From: Roseomonas sp.
Lineage (GTDB): Bacteria; Pseudomonadota; Alphaproteobacteria; Acetobacterales; Acetobacteraceae
Assembly (NCBI GenBank): GCA_020249505.1
Contig: JADCFN010000008.1
Span: 1-64,000, forward strand
Length of the DNA: 64,000 nucleotides
Direction: 5' to 3'
The notes under the pieces were generated by a model that worked only from the letters and a program-made list of their open reading frames with translations, had not been told where the DNA came from and made no database searches. Positions 11,301 through 54,385 of the stretch are shown here, in pieces. Position 1 is the stretch's first letter. Each line of letters starts with the position of its first letter. The position numbers and the translations under genes are program-made.

Positions 11301-12356
11301 TCAGCGTGTTGTCTGCGCCATGGGCGCGCCACGTAAAGGAATAACCCGGTCAAACCGGCACCGCACATCATCGCCCGTCAAGAACACCGCTGCCCCTGCT
11401 GGCGCCACCACAAAAATCTGCCCGGCTGGTGTCACCACTTCATATTCGTGCGTCTGGCCCAGAAACGCCGCGCGCTTGATGGTACCGGGCAGTCCAGCCC
11501 CTTCCCCGTGCAGAGAGACAGCTTCCGGCCTGATCGCAAGCAAGGCTGCGCCGGGCGGATGGGGACGGAGCCTGGTTTCAAGGGCCACGCCAGCGAGCGA
11601 AATATACTGAGGGCCAAGCACTTCGCCTTCCAGCACATTCGCCTCCCCCATGAAATCGGCGATGAAGGCATCGGCCGGTTCATCATACAGTTCCCGCGGC
11701 GTGCCCATTTGCGCGATCTTACCCGCGCGCATGACACAAACAAGGTCTGAAACCGCAAGCGCTTCCTGCTGGTCATGCGTGACGTAAACAACCGTCAGAC
11801 CAAGGCGTTTCTGCAAATCGCGAATATCTTCGCGTACCTGCCGGCGTAGCCGGGCATCCAGATTTGACAAGGGCTCATCAAACAGCAGCACTTGCGGGCG
11901 CAGCACCAGGGCGCGCGCCACCGCGACCCTTTGCTGCTGGCCGCCAGAAAGCTCGGACGGTAATCTCTGCCCCAAGCCTTCCAGCCCGAGCGTTTTCAAC
12001 ATGGCAAGCGCATCCGCTTCCGCAGCGGCCTTGCGCGCGCCTTGTACCACCAGGCCGTAAGCCACGTTTTCCAGCACATTCATATGCGGAAACAGCGCGT
12101 AGGATTGGAACACCATGGCGATGCGTCGTTCCGCCGCCGCCAAGCGCGTTACATCGCGCCCTTCAATCATGATGCTGCCGGCATTGGGCAATTCGAGGCC
12201 GGCAATCAGCCGAAGCGTTGTTGTCTTGCCGCAGCCCGATGGCCCAAGCAACGTAACCAAGGCACCGCGCGGGAAGGCAAGGCTCACCTCATCCACGGCA
12301 TGTACGGTGCCGAAGCTTTTTGTTACTTTATCGAAAATAATGGCATTGGCAGTCAT
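11301..12356 (-). CDS. ABC transporter ATP-binding protein (FbpC/AfuC/PotA-like)
   Basis: Energising subunit of an importer, about 351 residues. It has Walker A GPSGCGKTT, Q-loop MVFQSYALFPHM, signature LSGGQQQRVAVARAL, Walker B VLLFDEPLSNLDARLR and the His switch VYVTHDQQEALA. A C-terminal TOBE domain (ISLAGVALETRLRPHPPGAALLAIRPEAV onward) follows. The frame opens upstream inside the permease gene, but MTANAIIFDKVTKSF from the ATG at 12356 is the natural start, overlapping the junction TGACATG. Last gene of the six-gene minus-strand operon. Homology alone would say ferric iron or polyamines; context points to a phosphorylated sugar or cyclitol. Confidence 0.88.
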   Translation of the reverse strand: MTANAIIFDKVTKSFGTVHAVDEVSLAFPRGALVTLLGPSGCGKTTTLRLIAGLELPNAGSIMIEGRDVTRLAAAERRIAMVFQSYALFPHMNVLENVAYGLVVQGARKAAAEADALAMLKTLGLEGLGQRLPSELSGGQQQRVAVARALVLRPQVLLFDEPLSNLDARLRRQVREDIRDLQKRLGLTVVYVTHDQQEALAVSDLVCVMRAGKIAQMGTPRELYDEPADAFIADFMGEANVLEGEVLGPQYISLAGVALETRLRPHPPGAALLAIRPEAVSLHGEGAGLPGTIKRAAFLGQTHEYEVVTPAGQIFVVAPAGAAVFLTGDDVRCRFDRVIPLRGAPMAQTTR

Positions 12357-12357
12357 G

Positions 12358-14541
12358 TCAGGCTCCAGCCCTGATGGGCGCGGGTGCTGGCGCGCCAGCC
12401 GCGCGGCGCGCCATCTCGGCGCGTCCCACAAATTTTTCGATCCCCAATACCACCACCAGCATGATCACGATCAGCACTGTGGAATAGGCAATGGCAAGCG
12501 CCATCTCGCCGGCCTCAACACGGCCCACTATATAAACCGTGGCGAGGTTATGCCGTGCGGAGACCAGGAAGATCACGGCGGAAACCGCTGTCATGGCATG
12601 GACAAAGCTGAAGGCGAGTGCGGTGATGATCGCCGGGCGCATCAGCGGCAGCACCACACGGCGGAGCGTCTGCACCGCACTCGCGCCCATGGTGGCGCTG
12701 GCTTCATCCAGTGATCGGTCAATCTGCGCCAAGGCGGCAATGCCGCCGCGCACACCCACCGGGAGATTGCGAAAGACGAAACACAAAATCAGGATCAGCG
12801 CCGTGCCGGTGAGTTCCACCGGCGGCACGTTGAAGGCCATGATGTAGGAAACGCCCACCACAGTGCCCGGAATGGCGAAGGACAGCATGGTCATGAATTC
12901 CAGCAGGCGACGGCCGCGAAATTCCTGCCGCGCAATCAGCCAGGCGAGCAATATGCCAAGCCCAGCCGTCAGCGGCGCCGATATGGCCGCGACTTCCAGC
13001 GTGGTGAGCAGGCTATCCCAGGCCGAACCGCGCAGCGCCATGCCATCCTGCCATTCCACTTCAAAGGCCGTGATCAAATGTCGCCAGGTGAAGCTCATGT
13101 CGCCGCGGCCAATATCATGTACAAAGCCGCCCACCAGAATGATGCCATAGACAACAGCAGTGAAAACGATCCAGGGCCAGACAATCGCAGCGGCAGTGAA
13201 TTTCAGGCCCTTTGGCAAGGGCGCCGGCAGGCCGGAATCGCCCTTGCCTGTCACGGTGGTGTAGCGCCGCTTGCCGAGCCAAAGCGCCTGCAGTGCAAAG
13301 GCACCGAAGGTGAGCAATAACAAAAGCAAGGCGAGCGCCGCCGCCCGCCCCGGATCATGCCGCGCGCCGGCAATGGCGAAAAAGATGCGCGTGGACAGCA
13401 CATCAAAATCACCGCCAAGCACCAACGGATTGCCGAAATCAGCGAGGGATTCAACAAAACCAAGCAGAAATGCCGCCGCCAAGGCAGGGCGCAGCAAGGG
13501 CCAGGTGACGGTGCGAAATACGGTGAAGCGTCTTGCCCCCATGGTGGCAGAGGCTTCTTCCAGGCTCGGCGAAATCGCGCGCAACGCACCATCCAGCAGC
13601 AGGAAGGCAATTGGCGCCTGCGCCAGAACCTGCGCCAAAAGTACGCCGGGCAGGCCATAAATCCAGCGGCTGCGCGGGATGTCGAACCATTCCCACAGCA
13701 GCGTGGTCACGATTCCCGTCCTGCCGAATAGTACGATCAGCGCCATGGCCACCACAAAGGGTGGCGTGATCAGCGGCAGCAAGGTCATGGCGCGAAACAG
13801 TGGCGCCGCACGCATCCCGCCGCGCACCGCAAGCAGCGCGAAGAACAGGCCAATCGCGGTGGAGATCGTCGCCGTCAGCGTTGCCAGCAGCAGCGTATTC
13901 CACACCACGCCGCACCCCTGATGGGTGGAAAGGCAGGCAAGGCTCCAGGCTTCCGGTGCGGATAGGCGCGCCATCAGCGCGCTTGGTGCGAATGCCGAGC
14001 CCTCATATACTGCGGCGACAAGAATGGTCGTGAGTGGTGCAAAAACAAACAGCAACAACAGAAAGCCGCTGCCAGTGACAAGAAAGGCGATGAAGGCATC
14101 ACCACGAAAGCCACCACGCGCCGCAAGGCCGGCGGCGAGAAAACCCGTAGCGCCGATAAGCAACAATAGCGCGCCCCAACCAAGCGATGGCTGAGGAGGC
14201 GCTTCCGCGAGCCAGGGGCCAAGCCAGTCCCATTCCAGCCCGCGCAGCCCAATGGCTTCCCCCATCAGGAAAACCCAAGCGATGATGCCGCCGCCTGCCA
14301 GCAGTAACAGCGCCGCATGGGCGCGCTTACCGAGCGCCGCAGCAGCGCCAATCAGCAACAGGCATGGCAGCGGCCAAAGCCACCAGCGGGCACCGGTGCC
14401 AATTAGCACCGGCAAGGGCGCGGCATTGCCGTGCGGCCAGGCGCGGAATTCCTTGAACCCGTCTTCAAGCCCATGCCACGGCAACAGCAAGCCCAGCGCT
14501 GCGCAAAGCAGCGCCAGGCGGGCCAGTTTCAACGCGCCCAA
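12358..14541 (-). CDS. ABC transporter permease, long fused type (FbpB/AfuB-like)
   Basis: Membrane component of the importer, 727 residues with two binding-protein-dependent permease domains. EAA loops are seen as LEEASATMGARRFTVFRTVTWPLLRPAL and LDEASATMGASAVQTLRRVVLPLMRPAI. About 190 residues with four or more extra membrane helices precede the first domain. Plain FbpB permeases are about 500-550 residues, whereas AfuB-type permeases are near 690, so this protein has the Afu layout (family lengths from memory). It lies 27 bases after the binding-protein gene and two before the ATPase. Confidence 0.85.
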   Translation of the reverse strand: MGALKLARLALLCAALGLLLPWHGLEDGFKEFRAWPHGNAAPLPVLIGTGARWWLWPLPCLLLIGAAAALGKRAHAALLLLAGGGIIAWVFLMGEAIGLRGLEWDWLGPWLAEAPPQPSLGWGALLLLIGATGFLAAGLAARGGFRGDAFIAFLVTGSGFLLLLFVFAPLTTILVAAVYEGSAFAPSALMARLSAPEAWSLACLSTHQGCGVVWNTLLLATLTATISTAIGLFFALLAVRGGMRAAPLFRAMTLLPLITPPFVVAMALIVLFGRTGIVTTLLWEWFDIPRSRWIYGLPGVLLAQVLAQAPIAFLLLDGALRAISPSLEEASATMGARRFTVFRTVTWPLLRPALAAAFLLGFVESLADFGNPLVLGGDFDVLSTRIFFAIAGARHDPGRAAALALLLLLLTFGAFALQALWLGKRRYTTVTGKGDSGLPAPLPKGLKFTAAAIVWPWIVFTAVVYGIILVGGFVHDIGRGDMSFTWRHLITAFEVEWQDGMALRGSAWDSLLTTLEVAAISAPLTAGLGILLAWLIARQEFRGRRLLEFMTMLSFAIPGTVVGVSYIMAFNVPPVELTGTALILILCFVFRNLPVGVRGGIAALAQIDRSLDEASATMGASAVQTLRRVVLPLMRPAIITALAFSFVHAMTAVSAVIFLVSARHNLATVYIVGRVEAGEMALAIAYSTVLIVIMLVVVLGIEKFVGRAEMARRAAGAPAPAPIRAGA

Positions 14542-14568
14542 ATCAAGCCCTGTGTAGCGCGTGCTGTC

Positions 14569-15596
14569 TCAGCGCGCCCCGGCACGCACTTCGCGCTGCC
14601 AGCGTTCAATCAGGCGGGTGCGTTCCTGCGCACTGCCCCAACGCGCGAAATCATAATCAATCAGCGGCACGTTTTCGAAGCGCGGTGCTTGCGGTGGGAT
14701 CGGCGCATTGCGGTTGGATGGCAATTGATAGGCTTTCGCATCCGCCGCCAGCGCCTGGGCCTCTGCGGTCAATGCCAATCAAAGAACCGCCGTGCATTGG
14801 CCATATTGCGCGCGCCGCGAATGATGGACATGGAACCGATTTCATACCCTGTGCCCTCGCAAGGCCCGACCAATTCCACCGGCGCACCTGTCACTTTTTG
14901 CGCGACGGCATCATGCAGGAAGGTGATACCGACCAGCGTTTCACCCGTCGCCGCCGCACGTGCCGGCGCCGCGCCGGAACGCGTATATTGATTGACATTA
15001 CGATGCAGCGCGCGGAGGAATTGGAAAGCAGGGTCTTCACCCATGATCTGCACGAGCGTCGCCAGCATGGTATAGGCGGTGCCGGAAGTATTCGGGTCCG
15101 CGACCTGTACCTCGCCGCGGAATTCCGGCTTGGCCAAATCCGCCCAGCACCGCGGTGCGGCGATGCGTCGGCGCTGCAATTCGGGCGCGTTGTAGGAATA
15201 GCCCAAGGCACCCGCATAAATGCCAACGGTGCGGAAGCCGGTCTGTTCCGCCTGCCGTACCGCCCAGGGCTGCAATTGCTCGAGCATCGGTGAGCGGTAT
15301 TCAACCGTCAGATTTTCCTGCCCGGCCTGCATATGCGGATCACCCGTACCGCCCCACCAGACATCACCGCGCGGGTTCTGCGCCTCCGCGCGGATCTGCG
15401 TGAGCGTCTCGCCAGAGCTTTTGCGCGTCATGGCAACGCTGATGCCGGTGGCGCGTTCAAAGGCGGCCATCATGGGCCGGCACCATTCTTCCTGCACGGA
15501 ACAATAGACTGAAAGATTGCCCTGCGCCTTTGCCGCCATCGGCAGCAGCGCGGTCATGGCAAGGCCAAGCGCCGCGCCGATTATCCTGCTTTTCAT
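14569..15596 (-). pseudogene. Periplasmic binding protein of the ABC importer, frameshifted
   Basis: Extracellular binding protein of the iron/AfuA superfamily. A signal peptide (about 1-25, ending AAKA) precedes NLSVYCSVQEEWCRPMMAAF. The first frame ends early after RRFFDWH at 14769. The missing 70 residues continue in another frame from about 14778 as ALTAEAQALAADAKAYQLPS to the TAG/TGA near 14569. Adding one G to the GG at about 14775-14776 (TTTGATTGG-CATTG) restores a normal protein of about 342 residues. It is either a fresh null mutation or a homopolymer sequencing error. Ligand-site candidates are the FLHD motif (H228, D229) and E247/E252. Confidence 0.85.
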
Positions 15597-15618
15597 TTTT
15601 TCCTCTCCCTGTTCCCGG

Positions 15619-16401
15619 TCATGGTGACATTAAACGCATCAAACCTGCCCCCAAAGCGGGCGCAGCAAAGCAGATGGGATTGCCGCTGGCCAGCCAATCA
15701 CCGCTGTCGAACGCATTCGTCCAGCAACCGGCTTCGCGGGCGATGGCAAGCGCGCCACAAGCATCCCAGGCATTGATGTGCAATTCCATATAGCCATCCA
15801 GCCGCCCGATGGCGGTTTCCACCAGGCCGAGCGTACCGGAACCACCGCAACGCATGCCCGCACCGCTTGCCATGACGCGCCCGGCAAGTGCGATGTAATT
15901 CGCAACTGGCCGACGCAGCGACCAGCCGATTTCAATCGTCGCGCGGTCAAAATCTTGGGTGGCTGCTGCTTGTATCGGCGTACCATTCAGCGTGGCACCG
16001 CAGCCCTGCGCGCCAAGCATCACCTCCTGCGGCGCGTGACGGGCAATGGCGCCCAACACGGCACGGCCATCAAGCGCAAGACCGATCGAAACACACCAGC
16101 GATCCCCGCCGCGCGCGAAATTGGAGGTGCCATCGATGGGATCAATGATCCAAAGCGGGCCGGAATCAGATACCTCGCCACCGCCTTCCTCACCCAGGAT
16201 CGCCTCACGGGGAAAAAGCCGCGCGAGTTCGCCGCGAATGAAATCCTCTGTCGCGCCATCGGCCTCGGTCAGGAAATCCTGCGCGCCCTTCAAGCGCGCG
16301 GCGCCCTTGCCTTCATGGCGCAACCGCGCGGCAAGCGCGGCGGCATCCCGCGCCATTGGCGCCAAAAGCGCAAGGCGGCGCTGCAATTCGGCAGGGTTCA
16401 C
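15619..16401 (-). CDS. Inositol monophosphatase family protein
   Basis: Mg-dependent phosphatase of the IMPase superfamily, expected to remove phosphate from inositol or related sugar phosphates. Metal site motifs are ILGEEGGGE, WIIDPIDGTSNFARG and the C-terminal NAWDACGALAIAREAGCW. The start is GTG at 16401, overlapping the SDR stop as GTGA; the open frame upstream is only read-through of the SDR gene. This gives 260 residues, the family norm. It lies between the SDR and the transporter genes in one operon, which suggests it acts on the transported solute. Histidinol-phosphatase or PAP-phosphatase activity cannot be excluded. Confidence 0.88.
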   Translation of the reverse strand: MNPAELQRRLALLAPMARDAAALAARLRHEGKGAARLKGAQDFLTEADGATEDFIRGELARLFPREAILGEEGGGEVSDSGPLWIIDPIDGTSNFARGGDRWCVSIGLALDGRAVLGAIARHAPQEVMLGAQGCGATLNGTPIQAAATQDFDRATIEIGWSLRRPVANYIALAGRVMASGAGMRCGGSGTLGLVETAIGRLDGYMELHINAWDACGALAIAREAGCWTNAFDSGDWLASGNPICFAAPALGAGLMRLMSP

Positions 16402-17192
16402 GTATAGGCCCCCATAATATTCTGATCGAAATCCACCAGGGCGCCGGTCATCATCTCGGCCGCGTCTGACAGCAGATAAATGGCAAGCCCCGCGACATCG
16501 GCGGGCTTGATCAGGCGCCCAAAAGGCTGCGCTGCTTCGGCCTTGGGCAGCCAATCGGGCGGATTGCCATCACGCTGCTGGATCACGTGTTCACCCGGCG
16601 TATCGGCCCAGCCAAGATTGATGCCATTCACCCGAATACGCATGGGTCTCAAGCCAAGCGCGGTATTTTTCGTGAGTGTCGCAAGCGCGCCCTTGGAAGA
16701 CGCATAGGCGGTCAGGAAAGGCTGCCCGCCATGGCTCGACATGGTGATGATGTTCACAATGGCGCCGGGGCGTTTGGCTTCAGCCAGGCGTTGCGCCATC
16801 GCCTGCGTCAATTGAAAAGGGGCTCGCGCATTCACCGCAAAAAGCCGATCCCAAAGCACCACCGATGTGTCCAGAATACTGCCACGATCCGTGAGCCCCG
16901 CAGCATTGACCAGCCCATCCACCAGGCCAAGTGTTGCTTCGGCTTCAGGGATAATGCGCGCAACGCTTTCGGCATCTGCCAGATCAGCCGCACAAAACTG
17001 CGCGCGCGTGCCGAGCGCGTGGAGCTTCGCCACCACGGCAGCGCCACGCGCCTCATGCCGACCGGTGATGGTAATGGCCGCGGCGCCCGCTTCCGCGGCG
17101 GCCAGGGCGCAGCCTTCCCCAATGCCCTGCGTGCCGCCGGTGATCAGGATATGCCGCCCCGCAAGAGAGATTTTCGGCAACGCGCCCATCAC
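16398..17192 (-). CDS. Short-chain dehydrogenase/reductase
   Basis: Classical SDR of 264 residues. The nucleotide-binding motif is ILITGGTQGIGEGCA (14-28) and the strand-4 motif is LVNAAGL. The catalytic Ser lies in NIITMSSHGG, with YASSKGAL as the YxxxK site. The C-terminus MTGALVDFDQNIMGAYT fits sugar or polyol dehydrogenases. It overlaps iolG by four bases and the IMPase gene by four, so it belongs to the inositol operon and may oxidise a second inositol isomer or an inosose. The exact substrate is not readable. Confidence 0.88.
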   Translation of the reverse strand: MMGALPKISLAGRHILITGGTQGIGEGCALAAAEAGAAAITITGRHEARGAAVVAKLHALGTRAQFCAADLADAESVARIIPEAEATLGLVDGLVNAAGLTDRGSILDTSVVLWDRLFAVNARAPFQLTQAMAQRLAEAKRPGAIVNIITMSSHGGQPFLTAYASSKGALATLTKNTALGLRPMRIRVNGINLGWADTPGEHVIQQRDGNPPDWLPKAEAAQPFGRLIKPADVAGLAIYLLSDAAEMMTGALVDFDQNIMGAYT

Positions 17193-18175
17193 AGCCTCAC
17201 GGGTTTGCCGCTGGCAAGTGACGCATTGGCGGCCTCCGCCAAAACCAGGGCGCGGCGGCCATCTTCCGCGCCGACCGGCATGGGCGTTTTGTTTAAGACG
17301 GCATCGATAAAAGCCGCCAATTCGATGCGATAGGCATCCGCATAGCGTTCCAGAAAGAAATGCAGCGGCTTATCGGAAGCAACCGCCCGGCCATCGGCCA
17401 ATTCCACCGTGGTGGGTGTGCGATTGCCCGCCAATAGACGCCCGCCACTGCCAAAAACCTCCACGCGCTGATCATAGCCGTAGCGGGCGCGCCGGCTATT
17501 ATTGATATGCGCCATGCGCCCGCTTGGCGTGCGCAGCAGCACCATGGCGCTATCAATATCGCCGGCAGCGCCAATCGCCTGATCCACCAGATTGGCGCCA
17601 TAGGCGAAGACCTCATTGGGTTCCTCACCCAGCATCCAGCGCGCCATATCGAAATCATGAATCGTCATGTCGCGAAACAACCCGCCTGATACCTTCACAT
17701 AAGAAATCGGCGGTGGCGCGGGGTCTCGGCTCGTGATGATGACCTGTTCCACTGTGCCAATCGCGCCGGTAGCGATGCGGCGATGCAATTCCGCGAAAGA
17801 TGGATCAAAGCGCCGATTGAACCCAACCAGCATCGGCACGCCGGCCTTGGCCACTTCGGCCAAGCACGCATCCACGCGTGGCAGCGCAAGATCAATCGGC
17901 TTTTCGCAGAATATCGCCTTGCGCTGGCGCGCGGCGGCAATCACCAGATCGGCATGGGTATCGGTGGAAGACGCGATAATCACCGCGCCAACTTCCGGAT
18001 CGGCCAGCGCGCTTGCGGTATCACTGACGCGCGCGCCATGGCGTGTGGCGAGCGCTGCCGCCGCTTCGCCATTGATATCCACCACATGCTTCAGCCTGGC
18101 ATGGCCGGACGCGGCAAGATTGCCGGCATGGATGGCGCCGATACGTCCGGCGCCGAATTGGGCGAAGGTCAGCAT
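17189..18175 (-). CDS. iolG: Inositol 2-dehydrogenase-like oxidoreductase (Gfo/Idh/MocA family)
   Basis: NAD-dependent oxidoreductase of 328 residues, expected to oxidise myo-inositol to scyllo-inosose, the first catabolic step. The N-terminal Rossmann motif is FGAGRIGAIHAGNL, followed by CEKPIDL (the EKP Lys) and the substrate-domain motif GLFRDMTIHDFDMARWML, with the Asp/His typical of IolG. The start is the ATG at 18175 (MLTFAQFGAGRIG); the 100-codon extension upstream overlaps the divergent iolD promoter and is not coding. First gene of the six-gene minus operon. Confidence 0.88.
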   Translation of the reverse strand: MLTFAQFGAGRIGAIHAGNLAASGHARLKHVVDINGEAAAALATRHGARVSDTASALADPEVGAVIIASSTDTHADLVIAAARQRKAIFCEKPIDLALPRVDACLAEVAKAGVPMLVGFNRRFDPSFAELHRRIATGAIGTVEQVIITSRDPAPPPISYVKVSGGLFRDMTIHDFDMARWMLGEEPNEVFAYGANLVDQAIGAAGDIDSAMVLLRTPSGRMAHINNSRRARYGYDQRVEVFGSGGRLLAGNRTPTTVELADGRAVASDKPLHFFLERYADAYRIELAAFIDAVLNKTPMPVGAEDGRRALVLAEAANASLASGKPVRL

Positions 18176-18272
18176 GCGTGGCCTCGCGTTTCCTCGTTGG
18201 TTCTTGCGCGGTGGTTTCAATGACCGTAACACGCAAGAAAGGCGGGACAATACCCCCAGGCGAGGAGATTCC
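18176..18272. promoter_or_regulatory. Divergent promoter region iolG/iolD with an inverted repeat
   Basis: The 97 bases between the two start codons must hold both promoters. They contain a perfect 8-bp inverted repeat TTCTTGCG (18201-18208) and CGCAAGAA (18232-18239), arms centred 31 bases apart, about three helical turns. It could bind a repressor of both operons, or form a hairpin in the iolD leader. iolD has a good AGGAG site at 18263-18267. No regulator gene lies beside the locus. Confidence 0.5.
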
Positions 18273-20111
18273 ATGGCGAGCCTCACTCTGACCGCGGCCG
18301 AGGCCGTGGTCCGCTTCCTGGCAGCGCAGGAAACCGAGATTGATGGCCGGGCGCTGCTGCTTTTCGGCGGTGTCTGGGCGATTTTTGGCCATGGCAATGT
18401 CGCCGGGCTGGGGCCGGCCTTGGAAGCGCAGCGCGCCAAGCTACCGGTTTTTCGCGCGCATAATGAACAGGCCATGGCGCTGGCCGCGATTGCCTATGCC
18501 AAAACCCATGCGCGGCGGCGCATGATGGCCTGCACGAGTTCCATCGGACCCGGCGCGACGAATATGGTGACAGCGGCGGCTGTGGCGCATGCGAATCGCC
18601 TGCCGCTTTTGCTGCTGCCCGGCGATGTCTTTGCCAGCCGCCGCCCTGATCCAGTCTTGCAGCAGATCGAGAATTTCGGTGATGCGACGCTTTCCGCCAA
18701 TGATTGCTTCCGCCCCGTATCGCGCCATTTCGATCGCATCACGCGCGCCGAGCAATTGCTGGCGGCACTTCCCGCCGCCATGCGCGTCCTGACCGATCCT
18801 GCCGAATGCGGCCCCGTCACGCTGGCCTTCCCGCAGGATGTGCAGACGGAGGCCATGGCATGGCCCGCTGCCTTCTTCCGCAAGCGCCTGTGGCGCCCGC
18901 GCGCGGCGGAACCTGACGCGCGAGAACTCGCCGCCGCGGCTGCGCTGCTCGGGCAGGCGAAACGCCCGATCATCATCATCGGTGGTGGTGTGAAATATGC
19001 GCGCGCGGAAGCAGCACTTGAGAAATTTGTCGCGCACAACGGCATTCCCTATGCCGAGACCCAGGCCGGCAAGGGAAGCCTCGCTTGGGATGCGCCGGGC
19101 AATCTGGGCGCCATTGGCGTGACCGGTACGGCGGCGGCCAATGCGCTGGCCGCTCAGGCCGATGTTGTTCTGGCGATTGGCACCAGGTTGCAGGATTTCT
19201 CCACGGGCTCTCGCGCCTTGTTTCCGAAAGCGCGCGTGATCGGCCTGAATGTCGCAGGCTTTGATGCGCATAAGCATGGTGCGCTACCCTTGGTGGCCGA
19301 TGCGGCGCGAGGGCTTGCGGCACTCTCAACCGCGCTCGGCTCTTGGGCCGCGCCGCAAGCCTGGCAAGGCAAGGCACGCAGCGCCATCCAGCGATGGCAG
19401 CGCGTGGTGGATCGCGTCACCGCCGCGCCCAAGGGCAAAAATACTGGCCTGCCGACCGATGCGCAGGTTGTCGGCGCGGTCAATCGCGCCATGCCGCGCC
19501 ATGGCTTGGTGGTATGCGCGGCCGGCGGCCTGCCCGGCGAATTGCACAAGCTATGGCGCGCAACAGATGGCACTGGCTACCATCTGGAATATGGCTATTC
19601 CTGCATGGGCTATGAAATCGCGGGCGGGCTTGGCGCCAAGCTTGCAGCGCCAAACCGCGAAGTGGTAGTAATGGTCGGCGATGGCAGCTACCTGATGATG
19701 AATAGCGAAATCGCGACTTCCATCGCGCTTGGCGCCAAGCTTACGATCATTGTGCTTGATAATCGTGGCTTTGGCTGCATTCATCGCCTGCAACGCGGCA
19801 CGGGCGGCGCGCCCTTCAATAACCTGCTGACCGATAGCGCACCGCGCATTGATTTCGCCGCCCACGCCGCAGCACTCGGCGCTGAGGCGCGCAAGGTCAG
19901 CGATATCGCGGCACTGGAAGCCGCCCTGCCCGCAGCCTTCGCCGCCAAGCGCACGCAAGTGATCGTGATTGAAACAGATCCGGAGACCGGCACGGCCGAA
20001 GGTGGCGCCTGGTGGGAAGTGCCAGTCAGCGCTGCACCGCATTCGCCCGCGCAAAAATCCGCGCGCCAGGATTATGAAGTAAAGCGCCGTAACCAGGCAG
20101 AAGGGGGCTGA
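18273..20111 (+). CDS. iolD: 3D-(3,5/4)-trihydroxycyclohexane-1,2-dione hydrolase
   Basis: Thiamine-diphosphate enzyme that opens the ring of the inosose dehydration product in inositol catabolism. The 612 residues follow the usual three-domain plan. The Pyr domain has FGGVWAIFGHGNVAGLG and the cofactor-activating Glu in RAHNEQAMALAAIAYAK. A middle Rossmann-like domain follows. The PP domain has MVGDGSYLMMNSEIATS and IIVLDNRGFGCIHRL as the Mg/ThDP-binding GDG...N motif. The start is the ATG at 18273 with AGGAG five bases upstream; the longer frame upstream lies on the complement of iolG. iolE follows by two bases. Confidence 0.93.
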   Translation: MASLTLTAAEAVVRFLAAQETEIDGRALLLFGGVWAIFGHGNVAGLGPALEAQRAKLPVFRAHNEQAMALAAIAYAKTHARRRMMACTSSIGPGATNMVTAAAVAHANRLPLLLLPGDVFASRRPDPVLQQIENFGDATLSANDCFRPVSRHFDRITRAEQLLAALPAAMRVLTDPAECGPVTLAFPQDVQTEAMAWPAAFFRKRLWRPRAAEPDARELAAAAALLGQAKRPIIIIGGGVKYARAEAALEKFVAHNGIPYAETQAGKGSLAWDAPGNLGAIGVTGTAAANALAAQADVVLAIGTRLQDFSTGSRALFPKARVIGLNVAGFDAHKHGALPLVADAARGLAALSTALGSWAAPQAWQGKARSAIQRWQRVVDRVTAAPKGKNTGLPTDAQVVGAVNRAMPRHGLVVCAAGGLPGELHKLWRATDGTGYHLEYGYSCMGYEIAGGLGAKLAAPNREVVVMVGDGSYLMMNSEIATSIALGAKLTIIVLDNRGFGCIHRLQRGTGGAPFNNLLTDSAPRIDFAAHAAALGAEARKVSDIAALEAALPAAFAAKRTQVIVIETDPETGTAEGGAWWEVPVSAAPHSPAQKSARQDYEVKRRNQAEGG

Positions 20112-20113
20112 TC

Positions 20114-21001
20114 ATGCGTATTCGTCTTGGGATCAATCCGCTCACCTGGACCAATGATGACATGCCGGAATTGGGCGCGGCCACGCCGCTCGAAATCTGC
20201 CTCGCTGAGGGCAAGCAGGCCGGCTTCGCGGGGTTTGAGCTTGGCCATAAATTCCCGCGCGATGCCACGCTGCTGCGCCCGATTATGGCGCGGCATGAGC
20301 TTGATTTGGTGTCCGGCTGGTATGGCTCGCGCCTGTTGGAACGTGATGTGGATGCCGAAATGGCCGCGGCGGAGGCGCATATCAGCCTTTTGGTGGCGAT
20401 GGGCTGCAAGGTGATGGTGCATGCCGAAGTCGCGCGCGCCATTCATGGCGAAAGGGGTGTTGCGCTGTCACAGCGCCCCGTGATGACCGATGCGGATTGG
20501 GCAATTTTCGCGCCGCGCATTACGGAATTTGCAAAGCGGCTCAAGGCGCGCGGACTATGCCTTGCCTATCACCACCATATGGGCACGGTAATCGAATCCC
20601 AGGCCGAGATTGACCGGCTGATGGCACTCACCAGTCGTGAGGTTGGGCTTTTGCTCGATACCGGCCATCTCACTTTTGCCGGCGGTGATCCCGCGCTGGC
20701 AGCGCGCCAGCATGCGGGGCGGATTGTGCATGTGCATTGCAAGGATATCCGCAGGGCGGTGCTAGGCGAAGCGAAGGCGCGTGATTTGCCTTTTCTGGAA
20801 GCAGTGCTTCAGGGTGTCTTTACCGTGCCCGGCGATGGCTGCGTGGATTACCCAGCGGTGCTGAAACCCCTGGCGGCGGCGGGCTATGCGGGCTGGCTTG
20901 TGGTCGAAGCCGAACAAGACCCCGCCAAGGCGCATCCTTTGACCTATGCGCGCATGGGGCATGACAATCTGGCGCGGCTTGCGCGCGATGCTTTTGGGTA
21001 A
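20114..21001 (+). CDS. iolE: Myo-inosose-2 dehydratase
   Basis: TIM-barrel enzyme (xylose-isomerase-like fold) that dehydrates scyllo-inosose, the step between IolG and IolD. The 295 residues begin MRIRLGINPLTWTNDDMPEL, characteristic of IolE. Metal-binding landmarks are AYHHHMGTVIES, LLLDTGHLTFAGGDP, RIVHVHCKDIR and the C-terminal GWLVVEAEQDP. The gene begins two bases after the iolD stop, with the GGGGG run in the end of iolD as ribosome site. iolB, iolC and iolA are not in the window. Confidence 0.94.
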   Translation: MRIRLGINPLTWTNDDMPELGAATPLEICLAEGKQAGFAGFELGHKFPRDATLLRPIMARHELDLVSGWYGSRLLERDVDAEMAAAEAHISLLVAMGCKVMVHAEVARAIHGERGVALSQRPVMTDADWAIFAPRITEFAKRLKARGLCLAYHHHMGTVIESQAEIDRLMALTSREVGLLLDTGHLTFAGGDPALAARQHAGRIVHVHCKDIRRAVLGEAKARDLPFLEAVLQGVFTVPGDGCVDYPAVLKPLAAAGYAGWLVVEAEQDPAKAHPLTYARMGHDNLARLARDAFG

Positions 21002-51265: not shown

Positions 51266-51730
51266 TCACCCAATCTCAAACATCCCTTCCACTTCCACCG
51301 CCGCATCACCGGGGAGCGAAGGCACGCCAATGGTGGTCCGCGCATGGCGGCCGACATCACCAAACACTTCCACCGCCAGATCGGAAGCGCCATTCATCAC
51401 CAGCGCGTGCTGGGTGAATTCGGCCGGCGCGGCAATGAAGCCACCAAGCCGCACGACGCGCGTGACGTTATCCAAATCACCGGCAGCGGCCTTCAACTGC
51501 GCCAGCAGATTGATGAAGCAAAGCCGCGCCGCTTCGCGCCCGACTTCAATGGAAACGCCCGCGCCCAGCTTGCCAGTATAGGCAATCTTGCCATCACGCA
51601 CCGGCACCTGGCCGGAAATCACCACCAGCTTTCCGCTGATATTGAAAGGGATGTAATTCGCAATCGGTGCCGCCGGCGTTGGCAATACAATACCAAGGGC
51701 AGCAAGTTTCGCTTCGATCTTTCCGGCCAT
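51266..51730 (-). CDS. RidA/YjgF-family protein
   Basis: Small enamine/imine deaminase-type protein of 154 residues. The sequence follows the TdcF/YjgF-like YabJ group: LGIVLPTPAAPIANYIPFNISGKLVVISGQVPVRDGK, then AARLCFINLLAQLKAAAGDLDNVTRVVRLGGFIAA, and RTTIGVPSLPGDAAVEVEGMFEI with the catalytic Arg and the terminal Glu. The opening LGIVLPTPAAPIANY is typical of the larger RidA-like subfamily. It lies 25 bases downstream of the reductase-like gene and may share its transcript. Confidence 0.9.
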   Translation of the reverse strand: MAGKIEAKLAALGIVLPTPAAPIANYIPFNISGKLVVISGQVPVRDGKIAYTGKLGAGVSIEVGREAARLCFINLLAQLKAAAGDLDNVTRVVRLGGFIAAPAEFTQHALVMNGASDLAVEVFGDVGRHARTTIGVPSLPGDAAVEVEGMFEIG

Positions 51731-51755
51731 GATTCTGTTCCTTCAAAGGCGCCAA

Positions 51756-53252
51756 TTACGCTGCGGGGCGCAAATGGCGGCGCATGCGCGGCGAAGGATG
51801 CGCCGGCAATTCCAAGGGAAGCAAGGGCAGCACCGCTGCGCGCGGTTGCAGCGTTTCTTCTTCCACCGGGTCCGGCAAATCCTCACGCCCCAGATAATCG
51901 CGCGCGAGCCGACGAAACGCCCAATCCAGCACGGAAGTCGCGCGGCGAATGCCGGCATCGCCTTCTACCGCGCCGCCATGGCCGGGTGCATAGGCATAGG
52001 CATTGACGAAACTCGCCAAAGGCACGCCTTGCGCCAGGCCCAGCGATACGGCCTGCGCCAACGCCTCCATCAAAGCCCGCGTCATCGCCGCTTCGCGTGG
52101 GAGGGAGAAGGAAATCTCCCTCAAATGGCCGCGATCATCTTCAATGGCGCGCAGCGCCACGCGATTGCCGGCAATGGCCACGCGCCAGCAGCGATTAACC
52201 GGCGCATGGATCGGCCGAGGCGCAGCGCGGCGCGCTTCGGGCACATCAGCAGGGGCCGGCATGGCGGGCGGCGGCGCATCCAGGAAGGGCATCACTGCCG
52301 CTTCCATGGCACGCCGCGCCTGCGGGGCCACGGGGGCCAAAAGCCAAGCGGCGTCAACGCCCGCGCGTTCCGCCGCGCGGGTTGGCACCTGCGTCACGCG
52401 CCCATCCTCGCCGCGCGCCGGGCGACTGGCGCCTGGTGCTGGCGCAATGCCGGCGCTCTCCGCGCCCAGCAAAGCTTCCACCGCATCAGCGGGGGCCAAG
52501 GCAATGCAGCCGCGATGCCGCAAACCCGGCGAAGCCGCCGCCGCTGCCAAGGCCGCGCGGGCTGCCTTGGCCAAGCCTGGGATGGCGGTTTCCTCGGGTG
52601 GGGTTGGGCAGATCAGCGCCACGGCATGGCGCGGGCCGAAACGGGTGGCGAGGCGGCCGGATTCCGCCTCAGCCGCGCCGCGCGTCAGGCCGGCAATGGC
52701 GGCGGCGACATCGCGCGCCTCATTGCTGTCATAGCCAAGGCCGAAACCGGCCAGCAGCCCGGCCAAATCGGCAAAGCCAAGGCGCAGGCTTTCCACCTTG
52801 CCATGGCCCCAAATATCAAGCGTTTGCACCGCAAGCTGACAGGCCGCGCGATAGGCCGGCGCATCAAATCCCCCTGCCCCATCCAGAAAGGCCGGCAGGT
52901 TGAGCACAAAACGCCCCTCACCCCGCGCATCGCGCCAGATCTCGGCCCCGGGCGCGCCGCGCCGGGCCAGAATCAGGGAACGCAGGCCAGCGGCCAGGCT
53001 TTCCGCCGCATCGGCGCCATCCAGCAACCCAAGGCGCCGCCCGCGGAGCGTCAGGCGTTGAATCCAGGCTTCTGCCACGCTTGGTAGCGTGGCCGGGCCG
53101 CCCCCCGGGGCGAGCGCGGCCAGCGCCTCCCCAGCTTCATCTTCCCAAGGCGCGGGAATGGCGACAGCGCGCGGCGGCGAATCAGGATCCGCCCCCGCCT
53201 TCAAGCGCCGCAGCGCAACCCCAGCCCAGATGGTTCCGACTATTCCAGCCAT
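51756..53252 (-). CDS. NrdJ-like protein lacking the catalytic core (TSCPD domain)
   Basis: A 498-residue paralogue of the class II (B12-dependent) ribonucleotide reductase. About 105-200 resembles the NrdJ barrel segment (CQLAVQTLDIWGHGKVESLRLGFADLAGLLAGFGLGYDS ... AAAIAGLTRGAAEAESGRLA). The C-terminal 130 residues match the TSCPD end of NrdJ (WRVAIAGNRVALRAIEDDRG, ALAQAVSLGLAQGVPLASFVNAYAY, TSVLDWAFRRLARDYLGREDL). The central barrel with the thiyl-radical and redox cysteines is reduced to an Ala-rich stretch; only a few scattered cysteines remain. It cannot be an ordinary reductase. A regulatory or structural role is possible. Confidence 0.75.
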   Translation of the reverse strand: MAGIVGTIWAGVALRRLKAGADPDSPPRAVAIPAPWEDEAGEALAALAPGGGPATLPSVAEAWIQRLTLRGRRLGLLDGADAAESLAAGLRSLILARRGAPGAEIWRDARGEGRFVLNLPAFLDGAGGFDAPAYRAACQLAVQTLDIWGHGKVESLRLGFADLAGLLAGFGLGYDSNEARDVAAAIAGLTRGAAEAESGRLATRFGPRHAVALICPTPPEETAIPGLAKAARAALAAAAASPGLRHRGCIALAPADAVEALLGAESAGIAPAPGASRPARGEDGRVTQVPTRAAERAGVDAAWLLAPVAPQARRAMEAAVMPFLDAPPPAMPAPADVPEARRAAPRPIHAPVNRCWRVAIAGNRVALRAIEDDRGHLREISFSLPREAAMTRALMEALAQAVSLGLAQGVPLASFVNAYAYAPGHGGAVEGDAGIRRATSVLDWAFRRLARDYLGREDLPDPVEEETLQPRAAVLPLLPLELPAHPSPRMRRHLRPAA

Positions 53253-53417
53253 GAGGATATGCTAGGCGCGACTCGAAAGCCTGGGAAGGCGTATTTAGTG
53301 GTTTTTTGGGGGTCGACCCACAAAATCCTGTGGATAGCTTGGCCAGCGTTTAGCTTTTGCGTGACCCGCGCGGCTGTGCGATTATGCGCGACGTTTCGCT
53401 TGCACCGGGAAGCCGCC

Positions 53418-53759
53418 ATGCAGTTGCTCAGTACGCTGTTTATCCGCCTCACCAGCCGCAAGGTTGGGCAGGACCGCTTTGGCAATACCTATTGGGAAGC
53501 CCGCAGCCGGCGCGATTCCTATGGCAGACCCATGCGGCGGGTGCTTTTCGCGAAGGAAGTACAGGCCTCTGCCGTGCCGGCGGAATGGTGGGGCTGGCTG
53601 CACCACACCACGGAACAACCCCTGCCGGAGGACGCGCCGCGCCGCCCCTGGCAGAAGGAACACCGCCCGAATATGACCGGCACGTCGGAAGCCTGGCGGC
53701 CAGTGAACCCGGCGGCGAGCCGCGGCGGGGATTACGAAGCCTGGACGCCGGGGCGCTAG
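53418..53759 (+). CDS. NADH:ubiquinone oxidoreductase subunit NDUFA12
   Basis: Complex I accessory subunit (B17.2 family) of 113 residues, kept in alphaproteobacteria and mitochondria. The motifs VGQDRFGNTYWEAR, RRVLFAKEVQASAVPAEWWGWLHHTTEQPL and HRPNMTGTSEAWRP are clear. The ATG at 53418 is chosen because homology begins there (MQLLSTLFIRLTSRKVG); the open frame above is intergenic. It is divergent from the NrdJ-like gene and followed after 131 bases by mlaD, an order common in the group. Confidence 0.93.
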   Translation: MQLLSTLFIRLTSRKVGQDRFGNTYWEARSRRDSYGRPMRRVLFAKEVQASAVPAEWWGWLHHTTEQPLPEDAPRRPWQKEHRPNMTGTSEAWRPVNPAASRGGDYEAWTPGR

Positions 53760-53838
53760 TGGTGCGATCCATGCTGATCTTCCCCGCCCCGGGAATACCC
53801 CCGCGCACCACTAGCCGAATGTTTGGCGGGCCGATTCA

Positions 53839-53865
53839 CGCTGCTGTCGGAAACCGACAGCAGCG
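53839..53865 (+). promoter_or_regulatory. Strong hairpin before mlaD
   Basis: CGCTGCTGTCGG (53839-53850) pairs perfectly with CCGACAGCAGCG (53854-53865) around AAA. No T tract follows (atcggacc), and the ATG of mlaD is 26 bases on. It may be a mRNA processing or stabilising structure, or a read-through attenuator. Confidence 0.5.
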
Positions 53866-53890
53866 ATCGGACCTTTAGACGGCCCGTCTC

Positions 53891-54385
53891 ATGCAAAAGC
53901 GCTCCATTGCGGAAATCCTGACCGGCTTGGTGGTGCTGGCCGTTGCGGCCAGCTTCCTTGGCTATGCTGTCACCAGCACGGGGCGCAGCTTTTCCGGGCC
54001 GGGCATGAACCTGACTGCCAAATTCGATCGCATCGATGGGTTGGGCCAGGGCGCCGATGTGCGCATTGCCGGCGTGAAGGTTGGGCAGGTGGTGGCGCAG
54101 CGGATTGACCCCGAAAGCTTCCTTGCGGTGCTGACACTCCGCGTTGATGCCGGTCTCAAGCTGCCGCATGACACCTCGGCCGAGATTTCGAGCGAAGGGC
54201 TGCTCGGCGGCAAATATGTCGCGCTGGTGCCGGGTGGCGATACACGGATTTTGCGTGAAGGCAGCGAGATCACCATGACGCAAAGTGCGATCAATCTGGA
54301 AAGCCTATTGGGGCGGTTCATCTTCTCGGCGGGTGAGAGCAATCAGCGCGGCAATCAGGAAAACGCGCCGGCCGCGCCGCGATGA
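53891..54385 (+). CDS. mlaD: MlaD lipid-transport protein
   Basis: Membrane-anchored MCE-domain protein of 164 residues that forms the hexameric hub of the Mla phospholipid transport system. An N-terminal helix (IAEILTGLVVLAVAASFLGYAV) precedes the MCE domain (MNLTAKFDRIDGLGQGADVRIAGVKVGQV ... ISSEGLLGGKYVALVPGGD). The partner genes mlaE, mlaF, mlaB and mlaC are not in the window. It is the first of three coupled genes (stops and starts overlap by four bases). Confidence 0.92.
   Translation: MQKRSIAEILTGLVVLAVAASFLGYAVTSTGRSFSGPGMNLTAKFDRIDGLGQGADVRIAGVKVGQVVAQRIDPESFLAVLTLRVDAGLKLPHDTSAEISSEGLLGGKYVALVPGGDTRILREGSEITMTQSAINLESLLGRFIFSAGESNQRGNQENAPAAPR

Follow-up and report, generated by a model that had tools for sequence, protein, structure and literature searches.

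Gene content of the locus

The window, that is the whole stretch of 64,000 nt that was analysed, belongs to contig JADCFN010000008.1 of Roseomonas sp. (GCA_020249505.1). The part studied here (positions 11301-21001) carries genes of inositol degradation together with an ATP-binding cassette (ABC) importer of the AfuABC type and a phosphatase of the IMPase (inositol monophosphatase) family. Gene families were assigned by curated NCBIfam cut-offs and by Pfam domain searches of the translated frames. The features were as follows.

11301..12356, minus strand: ATPase of the importer, AfuC-like (PF00005 and TOBE_2); adjoins the permease in relatives too
12358..14541, minus strand: fused two-domain permease, AfuB-like, 727 aa, TTG start; two BPD_transp_1 stretches, AfuB-like length
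14570..14768 (limits approximate), minus strand: binding-protein gene, C-terminal remainder in another frame
14769..15596, minus strand: periplasmic binding protein, AfuA-like, first 275 codons up to the frame break/stop, with H228, D229 and E252
15619..16401, minus strand: IMPase-family phosphatase, 260 aa, GTG start (PF00459, 3.1e-49)
16398..17192, minus strand: short-chain dehydrogenase/reductase (SDR) oxidoreductase, subfamily NF004847/PRK06198 (339 bits, cut-off 240)
17189..18175, minus strand: iolG, inositol 2-dehydrogenase (TIGR04380, 438 bits, cut-off 355)
18176..18272, no strand assigned: divergent promoter region iolG/iolD, with conserved blocks among relatives
18273..20111, plus strand: iolD, THcHDO hydrolase (TIGR04377, 895 bits, cut-off 715)
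20114..21001, plus strand: iolE, inosose dehydratase (TIGR04379, 404 bits, cut-off 290)

A preliminary description of this DNA had placed iolG, the SDR, the IMPase-family phosphatase and the ABC importer on the minus strand, with iolD-iolE divergent, and this arrangement was confirmed by the frames and the family searches. Overlaps of 4 bases join iolG to the SDR gene and the SDR gene to that of the phosphatase. In an alignment of 20 intergenic regions, CTTG...CCGTAACA-like blocks of the promoter region (18176-18272) were kept among relatives. The Caulobacter-type IolR operator GGAA-N6-TTCC gave two matches in the window, which is not above chance, and none in 11301-21001; no regulator gene was recognised within the cluster. 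In our judgement, this divergon probably scavenges phosphorylated inositol, and inositol monophosphate would be its most likely substrate.

Family and ligand residues of the importer

The importer has a binding protein, a single fused permease and an ATPase in one operon, which is the AfuABC architecture, the binding-protein gene being frame-broken here. The best PDB matches of the binding protein were 8x1a (2.4e-78) and AfuA (4r72, 2.1e-76). Its H228, D229 and E252 aligned to H205, D206 and E229 of AfuA, in agreement with the likeness to the AfuA ligand residues proposed earlier for this H-D pair and E; mutation of these AfuA residues is described as abolishing ligand binding (PMC4546632). 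Every mutagenised AfuA ligand residue was retained. A structural model of an intact ortholog (L031) lay 1.3-1.4 Å from AfuA and VcA0625, and its fold was much nearer AfuA than FbpA. Judged by sequence and model, the placement of the binding protein with AfuA (sugar-phosphate binding), and not with FbpA, holds.

Median open frames of the permease were 725 residues in 16 members of this group (one incomplete), 693 in 12 gammaproteobacterial AfuB and 565 in 20 PhnU2-like controls, all being upper bounds. The 727-residue permease had been likened to AfuB (about 690) and not to FbpB (about 500), which these medians bear out. Sequence, ligand residues, permease length and structural model also support the earlier classification of the transporter as AfuABC-type instead of FbpABC or PotD.

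If database names were followed, the importer would carry iron(III), a polyamine or 2-aminoethylphosphonate. The PhnS2, PhnU2 and PhnT2 models of NCBIfam were nearest or near-nearest to the importer proteins, and 'iron ABC transporter permease' is the public-record name of such permeases, even where an 'inositol monophosphatase' follows the ATPase (Pantoea dispersa). However, all three scores were far under the curated 2-aminoethylphosphonate cut-offs (PhnS2 180 vs 393, PhnU2 252 vs 593, PhnT2 354 vs 458), the modelled fold favours AfuA, and control PhnS2-like loci of the same family had neither iol genes nor IMPase (0/21 at the same thresholds, two weak matches being taken as paralogs). Such a substrate is therefore considered very improbable. 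Some papers also treat afuA as iron transport, among them PMC9611204, in which the 'iron(III)' AfuA/FbpA protein RHE_RS10880 and the inositol monophosphatase RHE_RS10865 of Rhizobium etli were both detected in minimal medium. Judging by the tags, which are three steps apart, these two would fit a binding protein-permease-ATPase-IMPase operon.

Pocket residues were compared across 203 binding proteins, including group 1 (26), other iol-linked proteins (31), gammaproteobacterial AfuA/P5PA-like proteins (18) and proteins with neither neighbour (63). The counterparts of AfuA H205, D206, E229, S37 and T150 were kept in 26/26 proteins of group 1, in which all examined AfuA contacts were kept except for T11 to Q, G36 to S and I186 to A (26/26). 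At these three positions, the other iol-linked proteins had Q in 23, S in 28 and A in 21 cases, with H in 30, D in 30 and E in 31 at the ring-binding positions; the gammaproteobacterial proteins had T in 13, G in 15 and I in 9.

The binding-protein tree was built by a quick method from 134 of 151 rows (17 control rows dropped), has several long branches and is read at clade level. Gammaproteobacterial rows were taken as AfuA by judgement from the sample. The group of the binding protein formed a clade apart from these rows, and the iol label was strongly clustered (13 changes vs 29.9 in shuffles). In the original AfuA paper, the alpha- and betaproteobacterial homologues are one tree group (121/268), and the word 'inositol' does not occur in the main text (PMC4546632).

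A second arrangement was seen in the window's genome (contig C2, about 51374-54254; L049, 8165-11279) and also in L050, where a single permease and a single ATPase serve three AfuA-like binding proteins encoded in tandem. The protein in the middle probably has another ligand, because M-E replaces its His-Asp pair. In L067, L071, L072, L075, L076 and L078, the AfuABC operon begins with the IMPase gene and has two or three binding-protein genes grouped around that of the permease.

Conservation of the neighbourhood

The order sample comprised 200 genomes, 45 of which had a binding-protein match at E ≤ 1e-20. A close ortholog (at least 81% identity) was found in 19 of the 45, the window's genome included. 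Within the stretches fetched from the 18 other ortholog genomes, iolG, iolD and iolE were present in 15/18, the permease and ATPase in 16/18 and the phosphatase in 17/18. Two of the exceptions, L042 and L046, are short contigs, whose genomes have matching iol pieces elsewhere, on separate contigs (L252 and L251). In L052, L058 and L060, from the same family, iol genes stand in other arrangements beside a binding protein of about 60% identity, with the phosphatase in two of the three. Gene order is conserved in relatives and chance is therefore excluded. The preliminary description had named absence of the importer beside iolG/iolD in related species as evidence against it. This did not come true, genome G101 being the sole true exception, and the proposed survey of related genomes showed the importer linked to iol genes and to a phosphatase of the IMPase family well outside the genus.

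Wider samples, searched at E ≤ 1e-60, gave matches in 29/385 genomes of the class and 28/398 of the phylum, the window's genome being counted in both. From these, 60 loci were collected (some genomes give several), of which 49 were alphaproteobacterial and outside the family; all three transporter genes were present in 38 of the 49. Genes at these loci were called by identity thresholds chosen by the analyst. An IMPase was found in 24 of these 38 complete loci, 22 times within 600 bp of an ABC gene. Ten held at least two iol genes, nine of them with the IMPase.

Named loci were the best 80 of at least 589, and 10 of the 80 were on the same contigs as genome-sample loci. Among these best 80, 60 carried an IMPase, which was within 600 bp of an ABC gene in 58 and on the same strand in 47 of the 58. 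At least two iol genes were present in 24/80 (21 of these with IMPase) and complete iolB/C/D/E in 8/80. Carriers with the window's arrangement were Roseomonas, Falsiroseomonas, Neoroseomonas and Elioraea; further named carriers were Microvirga, Beijerinckiaceae, Hyphomicrobiales and Burkholderiales metagenome-assembled genomes (MAGs). Pairings of AfuABC with a phosphatase of the IMPase family or with iol genes are found repeatedly throughout the Alphaproteobacteria and also in Burkholderiales, among other bacteria of soil and water.

The phosphatase has GEEGG at 70, DPIDGT at 87 and WDA at 212, which we take to be the IMPase metal-site motifs, and no signal peptide was seen by eye. IMPase-family enzymes also act on other phosphates. 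An IMPase tree was made from rows gathered by similarity, 2/4 paralogs passing the filter. In the first part of this tree, a branch separated 52 iol-linked phosphatases from the other paralogs of the window's genome, which hints weakly at a dedicated clade of iol-linked phosphatases.

Proposed route and comparison with known systems

This repeated association is most simply read as import of an intact phosphorylated cyclitol, removal of its phosphate in the cytoplasm and oxidation by IolG. The genes present, their families and the conservation of both the genes and the ligand residues were observed directly; the ligand, the direction of transport, the order of steps and the role of the SDR in the following scheme are inferred. 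The AfuA-type periplasmic protein would hold the phosphate by a Ser/Thr pocket (AfuA S37 and T150) and the ring by His-Asp-Glu. The ligand, still phosphorylated, would be imported by the AfuB-type fused permease and the AfuC-type ATPase. The cytoplasmic IMPase-family enzyme would then strip the phosphate, which is gained while the inositol is trapped. Inositol would be converted to scyllo-inosose by IolG and dehydrated by IolE, and the ring opened to 5-deoxyglucuronate by IolD. The SDR may have as its substrate either a different isomer of inositol or an intermediate formed later. The retained phosphate-binding residues make an importer of free inositol unlikely.

Ins(2)P was reported to build up while a gut bacterium degraded phytate (PMC7618129), and inositol phosphates are said to make up most of the organic phosphate in soil (PMC5237526). 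If the family does import inositol phosphates, many genomes carry a widely used but mistaken 'iron transporter' label, and a cell would obtain carbon and phosphorus together in a single step, with no phosphatase needed at its surface.

AfuABC (Actinobacillus/Citrobacter) and VcA0625 are hexose/heptose-phosphate importers that share with the locus the binding-protein family, the fold and the mutagenised ligand residues. Also shared are the fused permease of about 690-730 aa and the gene order binding protein-permease-ATPase, but three pocket positions differ, and the operon of the locus includes an IMPase-family phosphatase and an inositol dehydrogenase. The pyridoxal-5-phosphate importer P5PA/P5PB of Actinobacillus has a homologous binding protein with a phosphate pocket common to both; in the alignment, the ring-binding Asp and Glu are missing from the 6wce protein but present in that of the locus. 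KEGG M00599 (InoEFGK of Thermotoga) is likewise an inositol-phosphate ABC importer. InoEFGK binds inositol phosphate and is linked to inositol catabolism in Thermotoga. Import of inositol phosphate by an ABC system is already an annotated idea, with another transporter architecture: M00599 consists of a binding protein, two permeases and an ATPase (PMC5237526), whereas the locus has one fused permease. IbpA-IatA-IatP of Caulobacter is also an ABC importer serving iol catabolism in Alphaproteobacteria, but it has a XylF-type binding protein and imports free myo-inositol (PMC2597717). An AfuABC-type inositol-phosphate importer was not found in the open-licence literature searched, the subscription literature being mostly outside that search.

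Evidence against the route and alternative explanations

Several observations weigh against the proposed route. G101 (L048) has an orthologous binding protein without iol genes or IMPase. Among the 38 complete alphaproteobacterial loci, 15 had an IMPase without nearby iol genes and 13 had neither. Binding proteins with neither neighbour often carried Q (39/63) and S (37/63), and the two letters therefore do not mark iol linkage. AfuA is reported to bind glucose-6-phosphate (G6P), fructose-6-phosphate (F6P), sedoheptulose-7-phosphate (S7P) and mannose-6-phosphate (M6P) but not glucose-1-phosphate (G1P), a ring phosphate, and inositol phosphates are missing from its table of screened ligands (PMC4546632). 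The pocket would therefore have to differ from that of AfuA if the ligand is a ring phosphate. IolB/KduI was found in 0/19 genomes with an orthologous binding protein, the window's genome included, and IolC/J gave no match at E ≤ 1e-15 in 15/19, G000 among them; no IolC/J match exceeded 30% identity in the others. With both steps lacking, complete catabolism is not accounted for. Beta-propeller phytase, the one phytase family searched, was found in 0/27 genomes. Finally, G125 and G078, of the same genus (clusters L239, 1250-7457, and L240, 5593-11751), have lost much of the importer: the binding protein is gone, as are most of the permease and roughly half the ATPase gene. They retain the phosphatase, SDR, iolG, iolD and iolE at 91-92% DNA identity. 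The enzymes can thus persist without import, and the loss speaks to some degree against a close functional bond between importer and enzymes.

Alternatively, the importer might, like AfuABC, take up hexose and heptose phosphates in general, the IMPase-family enzyme being a promiscuous sugar phosphatase; its place beside inositol genes would then be accidental. This reading would be served by the retained AfuA ligand residues and by the IMPase found in 15/28 complete loci without iol genes. It would also suit a plasmid of the gammaproteobacterium Pantoea dispersa (L258, 9001-14214), where a LacI regulator adjoins binding protein, permease, ATPase and inositol monophosphatase genes and the stretch examined has no iol genes. 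The iol linkage is, however, repeated in different arrangements and families, and the iol label is clustered on the tree; this explanation is regarded as rather unlikely.

The enzymes could also handle inositol phosphate made inside the cell, the importer being incidental, as the enzymes kept by G125 and G078 would allow. C. glutamicum has an inositol-phosphate synthase. The corresponding domain (PF07994) was found in 0/27 genomes, but the C. glutamicum control gave no match and divergent synthases may escape the search. An endogenous supply is judged improbable because no Ino1 domain was found.

Import of inositol phosphate in the window's genome itself depends on a gene with a single frame break, after which the last 65 or so residues run on in another frame. 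The binding protein is uninterrupted, with 342 residues, in the congener G064 and in the Roseomonas MAG contig L159. The break is the one gap in a 9,656-base alignment with G064, and dN/dS against G064 was 0.051 for the N-terminal and 0.045 for the C-terminal piece, taken separately. Long-standing decay was ruled out, both pieces being under strong purifying selection; with the single gap, this indicates that the break is recent or a sequencing error. Because the gene is interrupted, import is probably impaired in this genome, unless the break is a sequencing error. The break and the importer loss in G125 and G078 suggest that import, unlike the enzymes, is dispensable in parts of the genus.

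Inositol pathway beyond IolD and role of the SDR

Compared with the canonical IolG-E-D-B-C-J-A pathway, the locus encodes IolG, IolE and IolD, all over curated cut-offs; in the window's genome IolB is absent, IolC/J has no convincing homolog and an SDR is added. The degradation system of the preliminary description stood as regards iolG, iolD and iolE, but the pathway is incomplete in the lineage. In the order sample, IolD was over the cut-off in 51/200 genomes and IolB in 29/200. Weak IolC/J matches (27-30% identity) in 4/19 ortholog genomes (G060, G052, G006 and G143) were taken, by judgement, as other sugar kinases. IolB/KduI was also not found in the nearest outside iol-linked relatives (G428, G326 and G254). 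In two loci, L241 and L242 (G154 and G178), the stretch has iolD-iolE but no AfuA-like binding protein, and the genomes are without IolB/KduI. Lack of IolB is therefore not restricted to clusters with an importer.

A survey took at least three of iolB, iolC, iolD and iolE as the mark of a functional IolCatGC (PMC9430895). The window's genome has iolD and iolE only, and genomes of this kind would therefore escape that survey. The steps after IolD may be catalysed by unknown enzymes, or the route may have another end point; in a lineage that keeps IolG, IolE and IolD, the lack of IolB and of a convincing IolC leaves a well-studied pathway with a gap that experiments can address directly.

Among all fetched loci with iolD+iolE and AfuBC+IMPase (the named and genome-sample sets overlap), the SDR was present in 36/42. 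Of these 36, 27 were without iolB/CJ in the stretch and nine had one; five of the six SDR-less loci had iolB/CJ and one had neither. The SDR as a strict replacement of IolB/IolC was ruled out, since nine such loci hold both. It is a candidate for a post-IolD step, though it was also found with complete pathways. Burkholderiales clusters carry a second IolG-like gene in its place. This distribution would also fit uptake of a different phosphorylated cyclitol, such as scyllo- or chiro-inositol phosphate, or of a conjugate such as glycerophosphoinositol, with the SDR as the additional dehydrogenase for that isomer. Against this stand the five SDR-less loci with iolB/CJ and the one with neither, and the literature searched gave no biochemical evidence on the SDR subfamily; we think this explanation unlikely.

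For import of inositol monophosphate, a wider formulation is offered tentatively, its truth being possible but on balance doubtful. AfuABC with its own IMPase clade may be a widespread subfamily, misannotated as 'iron', that imports intact inositol monophosphate left by the phytases of others in many soil and aquatic Proteobacteria. In Roseomonas-type bacteria it would feed a pathway leaving the textbook route at 5-deoxyglucuronate, with unknown enzymes, perhaps the SDR, replacing IolB, IolC and IolJ.

In L052 (14250-15191), L100 and L101, a protein resembling, by eye, a TIM-barrel isomerase lies beside IolG and an AfuA-like importer. It is possibly an alternative inosose enzyme.
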